DNA of 64,000 nucleotides, from contig NVUW01000009.1 of assembly GCA_002733205.1 (NCBI GenBank), forward strand, positions 1 through 64,000, given 5' to 3'. The DNA is from Thalassobium sp. (GTDB taxonomy: Bacteria > Pseudomonadota > Gammaproteobacteria > Pseudomonadales > Oceanobacteraceae). This document shows, one piece after another, positions 1 to 7,216 of this stretch. The notes below the pieces were generated by a model, which saw only the letters and a program-made list of their open reading frames with translations, was not told the origin of the DNA and searched no databases. Each line of letters opens with the position of its first letter. Position 1 is the first letter of the stretch. Made by a program: the position numbers and the translations under genes.

Positions 1-957
1 TATACCAAAATAGGTTTAGTGATTCGATTAAACTTTTGGTGTTTTTGTATTTTTAATATATTTCTCTTCCGCTAACCTAGTTAAAATTTCCATAAATTAA
101 TATCTACTAATACCTTTTTCTGGGTTTCTTTTATTTCCTTTTTCAGGAATATTAGTTACAACATTTCATTTAATAGGAATATCCTCAGATAGAATTTTAT
201 TATTATCAATTAATTAAATTTAACTCACAAAATCATAGAAAGAACTATATTAAATAGCCCAAATATAATCAATTGGGTGATAAGTAGAGTAATATTTAAA
301 ACAATTTTTGACAAACTAATATTTTTCCTTCCAAAAGTTTTTAATTAATTCTTCTTCTTCTGGATATTTTATCAACCATTTCCAGTTATTTTTATTCAAA
401 TTTTAAAGTTTACTGTAATTGTAATCAAATTCGAAGCAATCGGCTAATAATTTTTCATTATCTTCTCTTACTTTATTAATAATAAATAATTTTTATTAAA
501 CTATTTCTTCTTCTTAGATTAAAGTTTTAATGTATTCAAGTTTTTTTTATCTTGGTTTAGATTTTAATAATTCAGGATCTGGTAAATATTTAATAAAATT
601 GTCTTATTATGACAAAACTTATTAAGTATTAATCAAATCTAATTAAATATCTTTATTATGAATTTAATAGTCAGCCCCGTATAATTTAATATTTTCTAAA
701 GAAAATCCTTATTAATATTTCTGATCACAGGCTGATTAAGTTTCTCCTTGATTATTTGAAAAAAAATATTATATATTTTAAGTTGATAAAACTTTAGTTA
801 TTTTGTGGTTGTTGTAATTTAATTCCATATAATTTGGTTAATAATCTTCAAGGTTTATGTGAACAAATAAAGATTAATTTAATTCTCCTGAATTGAATTT
901 ATCGTAGTAAAATTAGTGATCAACCCAATTATCGCAGATCCAACATTAATCTTTCAT
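1..957 (-). CDS. Conserved ciliate-type protein, partial, ciliate code
   Basis: Read from an ATG at 957 down to base 1 with TAA/TAG = Gln, the frame stays open for 319 codons except for one TGA at 168-166. The product starts MKDQCWICDNW and has a hydrophobic/aromatic-rich N-terminal part, an acidic/lysine-rich middle, and near the window edge the segment NPEKG.SRYQFMEILTRLAEEKYI. From memory, Cys-Trp-containing and RYQFMEIL-like segments of this sort recur in large uncharacterised ciliate proteins; no function is claimed. The gene continues beyond base 1. The single TGA is either a sequencing error (TGG is one base away), a lesion or a recoded codon. An intron may precede the chosen ATG. Confidence 0.6.
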
Positions 958-988
958 TTAATTTTTATTTTATTTAATTGTTTTACAG

Positions 989-1435
989 GCAGTTATTTAT
1001 CTTCGCATTGTTGAATAAAAATCGCTTTTACTTGAAGAATCTGGGATTAAAAATTAATTTGAATCTATAAACAATAAATATTTATAAAATAAAGTCATTA
1101 AAACACCTGAAATTGTTGAAAATTATGAACAACTCGACAATATATAAATATTTCAAAAAGCTATAGACGAACGTGAAATCCAAGATGAACAAATTGGCTT
1201 ATTAATCGACGGTGTAAAACAAATTAAACACAACGGTTTATTACTAGATAAACACATTCAAGATGACAACCAAATATTAGATAAAATGTAAATAAATGTT
1301 GAAAATTAAAATTCCTACTTAAACAAAATAAAAATAAGAATGTTACAAATAATCCACAAGGACGCCGGATGTTAACTTATCCATGTAATGATTCTAATAG
1401 AAATAGTAATTTTAATCTTTCTGTTGATTTTTTGA
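989..1435 (+). CDS. Qc-type SNARE (syntaxin-8-like), ciliate code, 5' end unresolved
   Basis: From 989 to a TGA at 1433-1435 the frame is open for 148 codons with TAA/TAG = Gln. The C-terminal half has the layout of a SNARE: REIQDEQIGLLIDGVKQIK, then GLLLDKHIQDDNQILDKM with heptad-spaced hydrophobics, a short linker with DAGC, and a terminal membrane anchor (LIHVMILIEIVILIFLLIF) that stops at TGA. This matches syntaxin-8/Bet1-type Qc SNAREs, tail-anchored fusion proteins of endosomal or Golgi membranes. TTTTACAG at 981-988 could be a 3' splice site, so a first exon may lie upstream; no in-frame ATG is evident. It is divergent from the 1-957 gene. Confidence 0.72.
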
Positions 1436-1460
1436 TCAAATTTTAAAATATTATGTATTA

Positions 1461-1863
1461 TCAAGCTTGGATGAACAAAACTTCGACTTCATTTTTAATT
1501 TTGTTTATGGTTTCGTTGAATTTGCTCTTGCCGTCTTTAATAATAACTACAGCAGTGACTTCTCTTGTTGTTCCACAAGCCTAACCTAATTTTTTTTTGC
1601 TTGAAACATAAATGAATTAAACATCCTATTAAATATAAATAAAATACTTTATCTTCACAAATTAATGGCAAATGCATAACAATTTCAAGTGGAGATGTAT
1701 CGGCAGCAATGATAACCAATTCGGCCAAAGATCTATTCAAAGCTTTTGTGCATTCGTTGGCTCCTTTTTTAATTTATTTTGTGCTTATGCAATTTTTAAT
1801 TAATGTCATTAATTTTTTGGTCATATCATCTTCAGCAAGTGGTTTAGCTCTTGGGTCACTCAT
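1461..1863 (-). CDS. SNU13: SNU13 / NHP2L1 (15.5K) RNA-binding protein, one 22-nt intron, ciliate code
   Basis: ATG at 1863 to TGA at 1463-1461. After removing a 22-nt GT-AG intron (1647-1626) the product is 126 residues, close to the 128 of human SNU13, and collinear throughout: [40 protein letters not shown], then [19 protein letters not shown] and an end at LFIQA. SNU13 is the L7Ae-family protein that binds K-turns in U4 snRNA and box C/D snoRNAs. Three TAA/TAG codons fall where Gln is expected (STKQIKKGAN, DKDVQFIYV, KLGQACG). This gene independently proves both the genetic code and the splice sites. Confidence 0.93.
1626..1647 (-). other. 22-nt spliceosomal intron in SNU13
   Basis: On the minus strand the segment begins GTATTTTA and ends TTTAATAG. 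Excising it joins ICEDK to DVQFIYV and restores the SNU13 frame through to the expected C-terminus; retaining it shifts the frame. The GTA...TAG ends and 22-nt length resemble the very short introns known from Paramecium and some other ciliates. Confidence 0.9.
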
Positions 1864-1912
1864 AAGAATATTTATTATAATAACTTTTAAATATATTTAT
1901 AAAATAAAACTG
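1864..1912. promoter_or_regulatory. 49-bp divergent intergenic region (ciliate)
   Basis: Only 49 very AT-rich bases separate the start codons of SNU13 (minus) and the RCC1/IPT gene (plus), so both promoters and 5' leaders must fit here or overlap. No specific motif is claimed. Confidence 0.5.
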
Positions 1913-4642
1913 ATGGGAAGTTTCGGTGAAATTTTTATTACTAATTAAGAAGTTGAAGGTTGTTTGGAGCCTTTAAAACATTTTAGAGGCAAATTGATTA
2001 CAACCATTTGTGGAGGGTATAACAAACTTTTTATAATCGAAGAAGGTGATTAAGAAAATGGAGTTGTATCATCATTACATTCACCATAATATGACGATTA
2101 CGACATTAATTTTACTTAAAACTAAGAAAACCCTTTAGAAGTTTTCCAATCTTTTGACGGAAAAGGGTAAATTTAAAACATTATCTGCGGAAAATACTTT
2201 ACTTGTTTGTTAACGGAAAATAATTAAATTTTCACATATGGCATAAACGAATTTGGGGTCCTAGGCCACGGTGGTTCCACAAACTACCCCATCCCAAGAA
2301 TAGTTTTAAAATTATCTCACAAGAAAATAAAATAAATTGCTTGCGGAGAATTTCACACTTTAGCATTAAGCGATATTGGGGATGTCTACAGTTGGGGTAA
2401 GGGATTTGAAGGATAATTAGGTCTAGGAAATTATGTAAATAAAGAATTTTAACCAGTCACAACAGCCTCTACTCCATCTTATATTAAAGCTTTTAAATAA
2501 AAAATAATTAAAATTGAATGCGGGGCTAGCTTTTCTTTGGCTATTTGTGACAAAAATTAGTTGTACAGTTGGGGCGATTCTAGTGTTGGATAAACTGGTT
2601 TAGGCAAAAGAAACCATTAATTTGTTCCAGAATTGGTTTAAGTGACTTCAGATGTTGATGAAACAATTTAATAAGTTTCAGCAGGTTGGGCTCATGTTGT
2701 TGTTATATCAAAAGGTATTTTATATTCTTGGGGTTTTAATAATAAAGGGTAGTTAGGCACAGGAGACGAAATTTCACTAAAAAAACCAGTAAAACTTAAA
2801 GACGATATTTTAAAAAATGAGCTGCCTTTGTTTTAAAAAGTCGTTTGTGGCTATCACACAACTTTTGCAATTGATGTAGTCGGCAATCTGTGGTCGTTTG
2901 GAGGAGGATATTTGGGCGTTAAAAGCGATTTTTAGTGCTCATTTCCAAGAAGATTATTCGAAAATACAGAAAATAGATAATTTTGTGATATAGTTTCTAC
3001 AATTAACTCTACTATATTTTTTTGCAAAATGAGGGTAATAAGTGTAAAACCAAACTATGGGCCTTCAAGCGGAAACACACTTATTAACTTAATCGGAACA
3101 GGATTTGCCAACACAGGTAAATAAAAAATTAAATTTAAATATGCAAATATAGAAATGGAAGAACCCTTACAATATGATAATACAACTGAAAGTTTTTTCT
3201 GTAAAACACCTAAATTTGATTAAGAAGATATAAATTTTCCTTAAGAGGTAAGTCTTAGTGTAACATTAGATGGAAAAATTTACATAGAATCTGAAACGAA
3301 CTTTTTGATTTATAGCTCCAAAATAAACCTCACATAAATCTATCCAAGATAATGCTAAGTAAAAGGTGGAATGGACTTATAACTTCAAATGAATCTTGAC
3401 GAAAAAACTGAAAAGTTTTTAAAATATTTAACAGTCGGTTTCTAGCTCAAAAACCTTAAATAAGACATGTAAGCTTAAAATTCTCAAAAAAAATCTATAT
3501 CTAATATAAACTTAAATTTTAAAGAAAATAACTCTTAAGTCCGCCCTTCTGTAATAGAAGGACCTACAAATCCCTTAGACCTTTCAATCAACGACCCAGA
3601 ACTTGAAAAAGAAAATTATATTTGTTTGTAAGCAGATTATTCAAAAGGAAAAATTTACTGTAAATGTCCTGATATAACTTCATATATAGACCCAATAAAC
3701 CCTCAATTTTCTTTAAATTATTCAGTTGATGTTTCACTAAATGGTCAATAATTTACAGGTAAACCAATTTCTTTTAAATTTTATGATATTAAAATTAAAT
3801 CTTTATTACCAAATAATACTACAATTGAGGGTAGTGCTAATTGTATTATTGAAGCGTCTGGACTATTTGATAGTCCGAATAAAAAACTTATGTTCAAATC
3901 TTCAAAGGGAGAGAGACTAATTGATATAATTTGGAATAAATAAGATAAAAATTACAAATTTGTTGCACCACCATTGTCATGGTTGATAATTAAATAGGAA
4001 ACTGATGATGAAGAGGTTTTGTCATTATGCGGTTAAGACATAGAAGTGAACATGACATTAAATGGAATCGAATGGTTAAAAGTAGGAAAATTCGTTTATA
4101 TAAATGTTGTTGTTGAAAGAATTTCTAGCGTCTAATATGACAAAGAAAATACTCCTGAAATTGTTGATGAAAAATTTAAAGATTTAGAAGAAATAGAAAT
4201 ATTAGAAGGATTGAGCGAGACAGAAATTTAAAAAAAGCAAGAAATAAAATAAAAATAAATAGAAGAAGAGAATCTAGATATAGAAAATTATTTTAAGAAA
4301 CAAGGTTAACATCTGTACATCAATGGTTAGAACTTTATTTCAGATGATTAGGTTTTAGTTTAACTTATTTTTAACTAAAAAATTTAGACTATACAAGGAT
4401 TTTACAAAAATTCACAAAAAATCGGATTTATTCTACCTAATCTAGATGATATGGGTATGGGTCTTGGTATTCACACTATAGATGTTCAAGTAAGTTTCAA
4501 TGGTTAATAATATAGCAAAAATAGCAAATCTTTTAAATACATTTGCTTTGATAAAGATATGGACCCTAAAGTAAAAGCTAAATACGAAGATGAATAATTA
4601 AAAATAATTAAGAAAAATATGGCTCCTGTTAAAAAAAAATGA
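1913..4642 (+). CDS. RCC1-repeat and IPT/TIG-domain protein, 909 aa, ciliate code
   Basis: ATG at 1913 to TGA at 4640-4642 gives 909 sense codons with about fifty in-frame TAA/TAG and no TGA. Residues ~85-340 contain RCC1 (beta-propeller) repeats, each with the typical CG..HT..L and L.SWG...GQLG.G pattern, e.g. LYSWGFNNKGQLGTG. From ~375 an IPT/TIG-like immunoglobulin fold begins (VKPNYGPSSGNTLINLIGTG), with further IPT-like segments near ~625 and ~800, separated by an acidic, coil-like stretch (~745-790) rich in Glu and Lys. RCC1/IPT combinations occur in protist proteins; a cytoskeletal or signalling scaffold role would be a guess. No signal peptide is seen. Confidence 0.85.
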
Positions 4643-4657
4643 TTTATATACTAGAAA

Positions 4658-5480
4658 TCACATTTAATATAAGTTTTTAAAAGTACTATCAAAGGCTTTA
4701 TAAATATATTACATCATCTTTATTTTTTAAACATAATTCAAACTTTAAATCTCCTCTATCACAAACTTTTTAAAGTCTAAATAAATTTTTGGCCCATCTA
4801 AATTTTCATAATTTTTTGCAAAGTTTTTTAATAATTTAGTTTCCAAATCTATTTCATTGTCTCTATAATAATATCTTTTTTTAATTTAAAAATCAACAGA
4901 TTTTTCATCTTCAAGAACAAAATTATTAGTAGTCAAAGTTGTAGATTATTCAAAAATTAAAGTATCTAATTTTTATTTTTTAACTATTTTATTCTCATCT
5001 TCGTTAAGTTTAACTCTAAAAATTATTTTTTAAAAAATAGTTTTATATTCATTAATTTCCAATTATTTAATTTTTTATTCAAACATCTATTAGTATCTCA
5101 TAAGGGGATTTTTAGAATTAAAATCAAATTTAATTTGACTGCCTTTAATGAAAGGCTCATATATTTCTTATACATATTTTATGTGATTTGTGTGCGAATT
5201 ATAATTCATTAGCCCATATAGGGTAGGAATTTCATCAAATACATATTCAACTGAATTTCTGAACATTTTGTGGCTTATGTCTTTGAAAAAACTTATGAAC
5301 AATAGGTGGTCCCTGCCGCTAAATAATCATAAATATTTTATATCTAAATTATATAAAAAATACTTTATTATGTTCTGGTTTGCAAATTAGCCAACTTTTG
5401 CAACAACTTCTCCACTTCTAATTATGTAAAAGTTATGGGATTTTAATTTAGTTTTTTTTAGTAAAAGATTATGTATCGCT
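4658..5480 (-). CDS. Ciliate-code gene of unknown function, cut by the junction
   Basis: Minus-strand frame ending at TGA 4660-4658. With TAA/TAG = Gln it is open back to about 5318 (segments such as FRNSVEYVFDEIPTLYGLMN and IEEIQSLNYVQKIKM). It rejoins the same frame upstream if a 45-nt GT-AG segment (5363-5319) that carries an in-frame TGA is removed. The upstream exon includes HNFYIIRSGEVVAKVG, which weakly resembles the first strands of a cyclic-nucleotide-binding domain. The frame stays open into the junction, so the N-terminus is missing. Tail-to-tail with the RCC1/IPT gene, 15 bp apart. Confidence 0.55.
5319..5363 (-). other. Putative 45-nt intron in the 4658-5480 gene
   Basis: On the minus strand it begins GTATTTTTTATATAA and ends GATTATTTAG. 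Its length is a multiple of three, but it contains an in-frame TGA, so retention would terminate translation and removal keeps the frame. A shorter 20-nt GT-AG alternative (5363-5344) leaves the wrong downstream frame. Confidence 0.45.
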
Positions 5481-5490
5481 TTTACTTTTG
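5463..5490. other. Eukaryote-bacterium sequence junction
   Basis: On the left side the ciliate frame is open to here; on the right side a bacterial reading frame with a signal peptide reads toward the junction and ends at 5482-5484, directly at the composition change. There is no transposon end, target duplication or long repeat at the joint. The exact breakpoint cannot be fixed to the base. Confidence 0.75.
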
Positions 5491-5769: not shown

Positions 5770-6215
5770 ATTTCTCGTTCCCATTTCTCGTTCCCAAGCT
5801 CCGCGTGGGAATGCAACTTCGCCAGCAAAGGCTACCACGCAGAACGTGGGAGCCAGATGCAGACACTCTCCAGATAAGCAGTACCGTTCATCCTGAGCCG
5901 CGATTTATATCTACACCGTTCACCCTGAGCAGCGAGGTATGAGCGTGTCGAAGGGCCAAACAATCACGTTCATACTTCGACTGCTTCGCGCTCAGCACGA
6001 ACGGTAAAGTTGGATCCGTTCATCCTGAGCCGCGATTTATATCCACACCGTTTACACTGAGCCGCGATTTATATCTACACCGTTCACCCTGAGCAGCGAG
6101 GTACGAGCGTGTCGAAGGGCCGGATACCAAGCTCCGTGTGGGAATGCAACTTCGCCAGCAAAGGCTACCACGCAGAACGTGGGAGCCAGATAAGAGCGTG
6201 GGAGCCAGATGTTTT
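5770..6215. repeat. Cluster of two dispersed palindromic repeat families
   Basis: Family A (CGTTCACCCTGAGCAGCGAG ... GTGTCGAAGGGC followed by TTCGACTGCTTCGCGCTCAG ... GAACGG) forms a long imperfect hairpin and occurs whole or in part about five times between 5888 and 6121. Family B (CCAAGCTCCGCGTGGGAATG ... AACGTGGGAGCCAGAT) occurs at about 5795-5858 and 6127-6190. Truncated monomers with ATTTATATCTACACCGTT spacers show repeated duplication. Family A recurs at 9180-9725. No gene is seen here. Confidence 0.8.
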
Positions 6216-6229
6216 TCAAACAGCCTGTT

Positions 6230-7216
6230 TCAGCTGCTGAACAACTTGGCCCGCACTTTTTTGCGGTATTCCGCTGGCGTCTGCCCGGCCAGGCGGCGGA
6301 AAATCCGGGTAAAATAACCACCGTCGTTATACCCCACGGCTGCGGCGATATCGGCCACGCTCAGATTGGAGTTCTGTAATAAATCGCGGGCATTGTCACA
6401 GCGTAATTTCTGCAGATATTGCGTCGGTGTGGTACCGGTAACTGCACGAAAGCGCCGGTCAAACTGGCGCTCACTTAATCCGGCATCAGCCGCCAGCTGA
6501 CTTAACAATAAGGGTTTCTGCACATTTTGCTGCAGCCAGGTTTGCGCTAAAGCGATGACTTCATCGGGGTGCTGATGTGCCTGATCGGCGTAAAAGACTT
6601 TTTTCTCGAACGGGTTACGAACCTCCGGTGAAAACTGCTGCTCTACCTGCAACGCCAGCTCACGGCCATATTGCAGGCCAATATAATGCACCATTAAATC
6701 GGCACCGGAATTCACACTGGCCGCACAATACAGCCGGCCATCCTGTGTCAGCAGATGCTGGCGCTGTAATTTTACTTTAGGGTAATCGCGCGCGAACTGA
6801 TCCAGATAATGCCAGTGCGTGGTGGCCGGTTTGCCATCCAGCAGCCCGGCCTCTGCCAGCAAACAAACGCCGGTACCAATGGCAATAATGCTGGCACCGG
6901 CGCGGTACTGACGCGCCAGCCAGGCAATGGTATCGGCCTGCTGCGCCAGTTGCGGTTTTGGGTTACGCCACAGTGCCGGCACCACAATTAAATCGGTATG
7001 TTCAACTTCATCCAGAATTTTGCCCGGGCGGATCTGAAAACCACCCAGCATGGTCAGCGGCTGTAATTGCTGTGCCACTACGTCTACCTGAAATACCGCA
7101 CGCGGATCACGCGCCAGACGTAATCGTGCCCGTGTGGCCTCAAGCATTTCCAGCGGAATAGCGACACTCGAACTGAGCATCTGGCCCATGGCCAGCAGGG
7201 TGACATGACGGATCAT
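6230..7216 (-). CDS. GlxA-family transcriptional regulator (DJ-1/PfpI + AraC HTH)
   Basis: 328 residues. The N-terminal ~190 residues form a DJ-1/PfpI (class I glutamine amidotransferase-like) domain (HVTLLAMGQMLSSSVAIPLE; IIAIGTGVCLLAEAGLLDGK, where the Cys sits at the usual nucleophile-elbow position). The C-terminal ~100 residues carry two AraC-type helix-turn-helices (LAADAGLSERQFDRRFRAVTG, VADIAAAVGYNDGGYFTRIF). Such regulators usually sense small metabolites and control nearby catabolic genes; the target here is not evident. AAGGAG precedes the ATG. Divergent from the fabY-like gene, so it could regulate it. Confidence 0.88.
   Translation of the reverse strand: MIRHVTLLAMGQMLSSSVAIPLEMLEATRARLRLARDPRAVFQVDVVAQQLQPLTMLGGFQIRPGKILDEVEHTDLIVVPALWRNPKPQLAQQADTIAWLARQYRAGASIIAIGTGVCLLAEAGLLDGKPATTHWHYLDQFARDYPKVKLQRQHLLTQDGRLYCAASVNSGADLMVHYIGLQYGRELALQVEQQFSPEVRNPFEKKVFYADQAHQHPDEVIALAQTWLQQNVQKPLLLSQLAADAGLSERQFDRRFRAVTGTTPTQYLQKLRCDNARDLLQNSNLSVADIAAAVGYNDGGYFTRIFRRLAGQTPAEYRKKVRAKLFSS

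Follow-up and report, generated by a model that had tools for sequence, protein, structure and literature searches.

Ciliate genes at the end of a Thalassolituus-like chromosome contig: a very probable chimera in a mixed genome bin

The DNA analysed here, called the window below, is the whole stretch of bases 1-64000 of contig C21 (101,017 bases), which belongs to an assembly, G000, of 22 contigs and 4.15 Mb with supplied values of 86.92 for completeness and 0.24 for contamination. GC content is 25.9% in 1-5484 versus 53.4% in 5485-64000, and the low-GC part begins at base 1 of the contig, being terminal with a single border visible. This raises the question of whether a bacterial chromosome acquired eukaryotic genes or whether DNA of two organisms was joined by accident, and of which organism the foreign part came from.

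The longest stop-to-stop frame in 1-5484 was 1008 codons under translation table 6 and 101 under table 11, and in 200 mononucleotide shuffles the longest table-6 frame had a median length of 303 codons and never exceeded 629. The first-pass annotation had read bases 1-5480 as five packed genes with TAA and TAG as Gln, among them SNU13, a SNARE and a 909-residue RCC1/IPT protein. Five models with these three identities were obtained (Table 1), except that one TGA in gene 1 breaks plain table 6, and the foreign part does end at a joint with bacterial DNA, at 5484/5485 and not at 5480. With TAA/TAG read as Gln and TGA as stop, four of the five models are open throughout and gene 1 is interrupted by this TGA alone; plain table 6 therefore accounts for four of the five genes but not for gene 1. 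Across the 1,703 codons of the models, Gln codons were TAA (91), TAG (11), CAA (22) and CAG (1), with 44 TAA, 8 TAG, 11 CAA and 0 CAG in gene 4. Genes 2, 3, 4 and 5 all end in TGA, the only stop seen, as they would under plain table 6, and the end of gene 1 lies beyond the contig. By coordinates, the convergent stops are 25 nt apart for genes 2 and 3 and 15 nt apart for genes 4 and 5.

Table 1. Features of the window at and around the change from ciliate-code to bacterial DNA.
Feature	Position	Strand	Details and evidence
Gene 1	1..957	-	Starts MKDQCWICDNW; 3' end off contig; 26 TAA and 1 TAG as Gln; in-frame TGA at 166-168
Gene 2, Use1-like SNARE	989..1435	+	C-terminal hydrophobic anchor; stop TGA; Pfam Use1 match
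Gene 3, SNU13 / 15.5-kDa protein	1461..1863	-	126 aa spliced; stop TGA; PDB phmmer
SNU13 intron	1626..1647	-	GT..AG, 22 nt, GTATTTTATTTATATTTAATAG; reading frame and homology
Gene 4, RCC1 repeats and IPT/TIG domains	1913..4642	+	909 aa; stop TGA; Pfam, PDB, codons
Gene 5	4658..5266	-	About 202 aa; starts MFRNSVEYVFDEIP; stop TGA; reading frame and codon score
Ciliate/bacterial joint	5484..5485		Identity break versus three relatives
Truncated bacterial gene (about 345 aa), first 72 codons	5485..5700	-	Intact homologues in three relatives
AraC-type regulator with DJ-1/PfpI domain	6230..7216	-	Pfam

Homology supported these models to different degrees. The SNU13 product matched its best PDB entry at E 2.4e-35 and human Snu13 at 8.4e-35 in phmmer, with residues 3-123 of 126 covered. 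Once the 22-nt intron is removed, CEDK runs directly into DVQFIYVSS and the product stays in register with the SNU13 proteins of other eukaryotes; this single intron was placed by reading frame and homology. Gene 4 matched RCC1 repeats (E 2.3e-53) and TIG (9.3e-13) in Pfam and UVR8 in PDB (E 2.8e-56), and relatives of its product were absent from the genome_contigs and viral_contigs searches. The Use1 match of gene 2 (E 1.6e-5, 25.2 bits) is below the Pfam cut-off of 38.3. By eye, the + strand lacks an ATG from 958 to about 1090, in the region that adjoins the start of gene 1; in this 5' region of the SNARE gene an intron may have been missed, the start may be unusual, or a second joint may be hidden. 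Gene 5 had no Pfam family at cut-off and no PDB match at E<=1. Gene 1 had no Pfam family at cut-off, no PDB match at E<=10 and no relative in the viral_contigs search, and its structure prediction (mean pLDDT 33.6) was unusable. Judged by frames and homology, 1-5484 is a run of real eukaryotic genes with a reassigned code and an intron. Eukaryotic matches for the table-6 translation were thus found in Pfam and PDB (SNU13, RCC1/UVR8), and the chimera proposed in the first-pass annotation stays unrefuted on this point.

In other ciliates, reassigned stops are read as Glu or Lys. The positions of the reassigned codons were compared with homologous proteins. The three GQ[L/T]G motifs in the RCC1 repeats have TAA, TAA and TAG as their Gln codons, and the facing UVR8 residues are Gln at the first and third motifs and Asn at the second. 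In the first UVR8 alignment of gene 4, read by eye, reassigned codons stand against Gln at residues 86, 141, 168 and 280, and against Glu at 105, Val at 88 and Asn at 227, with mixed residues or gaps elsewhere. The conserved Gln of SNU13 in KQ(I/L)..KGANE is TAA by eye and lies opposite Gln in all five alignments shown, at least three of them to human SNU13. On these UVR8 and SNU13 alignments, Gln was preferred over Glu or Lys for TAA and TAG.

The in-frame TGA of gene 1 bears on which code is used. The same-frame codon score was 0.173 bits/codon over the 261 codons before it and 0.185 over the 55 codons after it, compared with -0.478 to 0.004 in the other five frames after the TGA; in 25-codon steps the signal was strong around 120-160 and near zero left of 80. 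No GT..AG interval shorter than 75 nt and starting at most 60 nt upstream spanned the TGA. The codon may be read as Trp, or else be an error or a pseudogene stop. An ambiguous code of the NCBI table 27 type, with TAA/TAG as Gln and TGA as either Trp or stop, karyorelict-like rather than plain table 6, is a serious candidate to which we give somewhat less than an even chance. It would explain why the frame of gene 1 persists for 55 codons past the TGA with no short intron over it, and codes of this kind use TGA as a sense codon only rarely: the coding-TGA rate of Parduczia, 0.120% of codons (PMC4967479), predicts about 2 such codons in 1,703, against 1 seen. On the other side, the proposal depends on a single TGA, and an error, an allele or a pseudogene would look identical; no homologue of gene 1 that could show Trp at this position was found in Pfam, viral_contigs or PDB; and both gene 4 and gene 5 use TAA in their final 20 codons (partly by eye), a zone in which coding UAA is depleted in Loxodes.

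Intron size is the second character that can be compared, here with values from two papers. Loxodes introns average 19.3 bp, with 93% at 25 bp or less (PMC11441545), so that the 22-nt intron suits the table 27 type, but Paramecium introns, with a mode of 25 and a range of 25-45 given in the introduction of that paper (PMC5014332), suit almost equally. Modal or typical sizes are 56 in Tetrahymena, 48 in Ichthyophthirius, about 33-35 for the shortest class in Oxytricha/Stylonychia and 15-16 in heterotrichs (PMC11441545, PMC5014332). The intron is therefore of a size expected in karyorelicts such as Loxodes, Paramecium being almost as good a fit, and is a poor match for Tetrahymena, Ichthyophthirius, Oxytricha/Stylonychia and heterotrichs. 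The ciliate part resembles the karyorelict code as described for Loxodes magnus (PMC11441545) and Parduczia (PMC4967479) in TAA/TAG as Gln, in TGA that serves as stop and, in one apparent case, as sense, in introns of about 20 nt and in close convergent stops; unlike there, a single in-frame TGA is present here and its reading as Trp is putative. A Paramecium-type source (introns of about 25 nt, PMC5014332) shares the Gln reassignment and ultra-short introns, but would leave an error or a pseudogene stop as the only readings of the in-frame TGA.

The statement in the first-pass annotation that this code is mainly one of ciliates stands, and the intron suits the two ciliate groups just named. 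Paramecium uses table 6 and is mainly freshwater, and Thalassolituus is mainly marine. TAA/TAG as Gln also occurs in diplomonads, oxymonads and ulvophyte algae, and a source in one of these groups was weighed on that ground; an intron as short as 22 nt is typical of certain ciliates, and introns in those groups are few or longer, which makes such a source improbable. We return below to a ciliate as the source.

The border of the ciliate part was placed by comparison with three same-genus genomes, G002, G008 and G006. To the left of the joint, 19, 20 and 17 of 60 bases were identical to them, and to the right 28, 27 and 25 of 30; blastn alignments start at 5485 (G002, G008) or 5486 (G006). The sharp change of homology lies inside a native gene, which is cut at codon 72. 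Homologues of the 72-codon ORF were 96% (G002), 92% (G008) and 83% (G006) identical, in open frames of 346, 367 and 353 codons, and were found in 3 of 8 other same-genus genomes and in 0 of 46 further relatives searched. The gene is intact in the relatives, as a 345-aa ORF in G002 and as frames unbroken from ATG to stop in G008 and G006; in G002 it adjoins aceE/aceF-like genes of the pyruvate dehydrogenase region (names by eye from translation). The AraC-type protein to the right of the joint was 99% identical to that of Thalassolituus alkanivorans TMPB967, 97% to that of MAG Saccharospirillaceae S5C81 and 79% to that of T. marinus, and the chromosome was therefore regarded as Thalassolituus-like. 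A repeat of about 75 bp at 5784-5859 has, among the matches listed, many clustered copies in G000 and in other genomes of the genus and family (e.g. G000:C3:91492-92075 and G003:C1:2237025-2238319), like a REP-like interspersed element.

Searches for the remainder of the cut gene elsewhere in G000 gave, besides the window, only matches of 68-72% and short pieces, which were taken as paralogous. The G002 segments searched were 2228000-2235868, 2235869-2241069 and 2200001-2220000, with 2220001-2228000 and 2160001-2200000 left out; one G002-versus-G000 search recovered the window itself, and the empty 20-kb search had no positive control. Within this range the true bacterial continuation seems to be missing from the bin.

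The ciliate part itself is equally isolated. Among the G000 contigs, 1-5484 matched only itself, and 7 of 8 other same-genus genomes had no match; the eighth (G001) gave one 60-bp match (77%, E 8.6e-4) that was regarded as noise. No record of the plasmid collection matched 1-5480, and the literature search returned no paper combining Thalassolituus, a metagenome-assembled genome and a ciliate.

Other contigs of the bin were examined for comparison. C14 matched 1368 plasmid records, 1357 of them from Acinetobacter, and C16 matched 18, all from Acinetobacter, and for neither contig did any record cover 80% of the query. Both appear to be Acinetobacter-type plasmids binned with the Thalassolituus-like genome. 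C7 (5405 bp, 24-34% GC, standard code) encodes ankyrin repeats (WLKENGCPW) and DUF285+RING and Mrr/ResIII proteins, a content that we take to be giant-virus-like; one C7 protein queried in IMG/VR had no relative. C6 is a retrotransposon-like contig by eye, whose integrase-like ORF matched no Pfam family. The two ends of C9, of C10, of C16 and of C18 overlap exactly over 99 nt, and these contigs are therefore apparent circles from a k=99 graph assembly; C9 (74,374 bp) and C10 (42,489 bp) are apparently circular, and C10 carries portal- and head-like phage proteins by eye. Rfam searches of C6, C7, C14, C16, C17, C18 and C21:1-6980 gave nothing at gathering score. Of the 44 contig ends, 8 had a kilobase below 34% GC among their outermost two; the small contigs C7, C14, C16 and C17 account for 7 of these, and the eighth is the start of C21.

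C18 (5322 bp) is an apparent circle of about 5.2 kb that encodes a P-loop GKSSVGKT. When TAA and TAG are read as sense, and only then, one of its strands carries ORFs of 733, 504 and at least 215 aa, in which these two codons make up 61 of 81 'Gln' codons. It gave no Pfam match at cut-off, and its 733-aa ORF had no PDB or IMG/VR relative. On its reading frames, C18 is a candidate virus or plasmid of a host with a ciliate-type code; PMC7468197 reports at least five cruciviruses with codes of this type. In a search for further ciliate DNA in G000, the actin and tubulin queries each had a single match, on C4 (open frame of 350 codons) and on C20 (399 codons), and neither was accepted as ciliate. 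These we take to be bacterial MreB and FtsZ, respectively.

Homology ends at 5485-5486, the foreign DNA sits at the end of the contig, the relatives lack it and the bin holds DNA of unrelated organisms. On these grounds 1-5484 is with great confidence regarded as nuclear DNA of an uncultured ciliate present in the sample, accidentally joined to a Thalassolituus-like chromosome contig. The sharp break, the terminal position, the relatives without this DNA and the mixed bin all agree with the first-pass annotation, which had held a chimeric contig to be most likely and had placed a real joint second. The supplied contamination of 0.24 counts against it, but marker-based contamination figures were made for redundant contamination and can miss the non-redundant kind (PMC8862208). 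The case resembles the non-redundant inter-domain contamination of bins described there, with extra eukaryotic DNA that markers can miss in a bacterial assembly, and differs in that both genomes are fused here in one contig with a base-resolved break.

We infer both the joining step and the ciliate lineage. The assembly would have lost the true bacterial continuation (the pyruvate dehydrogenase region in G002), and its end would have been connected with a ciliate fragment either by a chimeric molecule, produced during library preparation or amplification, or by the assembler while it worked at low k or closed gaps. Since the contig would have been binned by its bacterial remainder, the ciliate genes would have entered the genome with it. 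A k=99 assembler would probably pass the joint only with spanning reads, or would have inherited the join from low k or gap closing. No shared k-mer is visible at the joint, and because of this and the k=99 signs a physical chimeric molecule seems likelier than a pure software slip. Amplification-type inverted duplications were not seen, inverted 31-mers being short hairpins only (2 of 47 stretches checked). The 13-mer ATCGCTTTTACTT, present at 1021-1033 inside the SNARE frame and again at 5475-5487 across the joint, is weakly unusual: a 13-mer is directly repeated in 5.9% of 45-bp stretches of the ciliate part, and in 1.3% the repeated word has at least 4 G/C; the shuffle control for the exact word gave zero. 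Inside the ciliate, TAA/TAG would be decoded as Gln, the tiny intron would be spliced, and TGA would be a stop and possibly Trp far from the mRNA end.

The same k=99 signs suggest that joint-bearing molecules existed. A real joint would mean that a bacterium associated with the ciliate, or living inside it, took up ciliate DNA and carries it in its chromosome as an insertion that is inert and not expressed. Against this, the foreign DNA is terminal on the contig with one border only, 7 of 8 other same-genus genomes have no match and the other a single noise-level match of 60 bp, additional foreign contigs lie in the bin, and intron and reassigned stops are intact, so that there is no sign of adaptation to a bacterium. 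We consider such an insertion extremely improbable, and it is likewise scarcely credible that a Thalassolituus-like bacterium keeps at least 5.5 kb of unexpressed DNA from a ciliate with a karyorelict-type code, derived from a host or prey cell. Functional transfer found no support, the genes being unreadable for the bacterium (longest table-11 frame 101 codons) and without a match in 7 of 8 other same-genus genomes, the eighth giving a 60-bp noise-level match.

Taken together, a fusion of ciliate and bacterium as a biological entity is almost certainly absent, and the uncorrected contig could pass as eukaryote-to-bacterium gene transfer, because the supplied contamination is only 0.24. The in-frame TGA of gene 1, which is unexplained by a short intron and new here, may point to an ambiguous karyorelict-type code. 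The joined fragment provides useful by-catch in the form of a handful of genes from an uncultured ciliate whose stop code may be ambiguous, and the same bin adds a 5.2-kb circular element (C18) with long frames only under a ciliate-type code.
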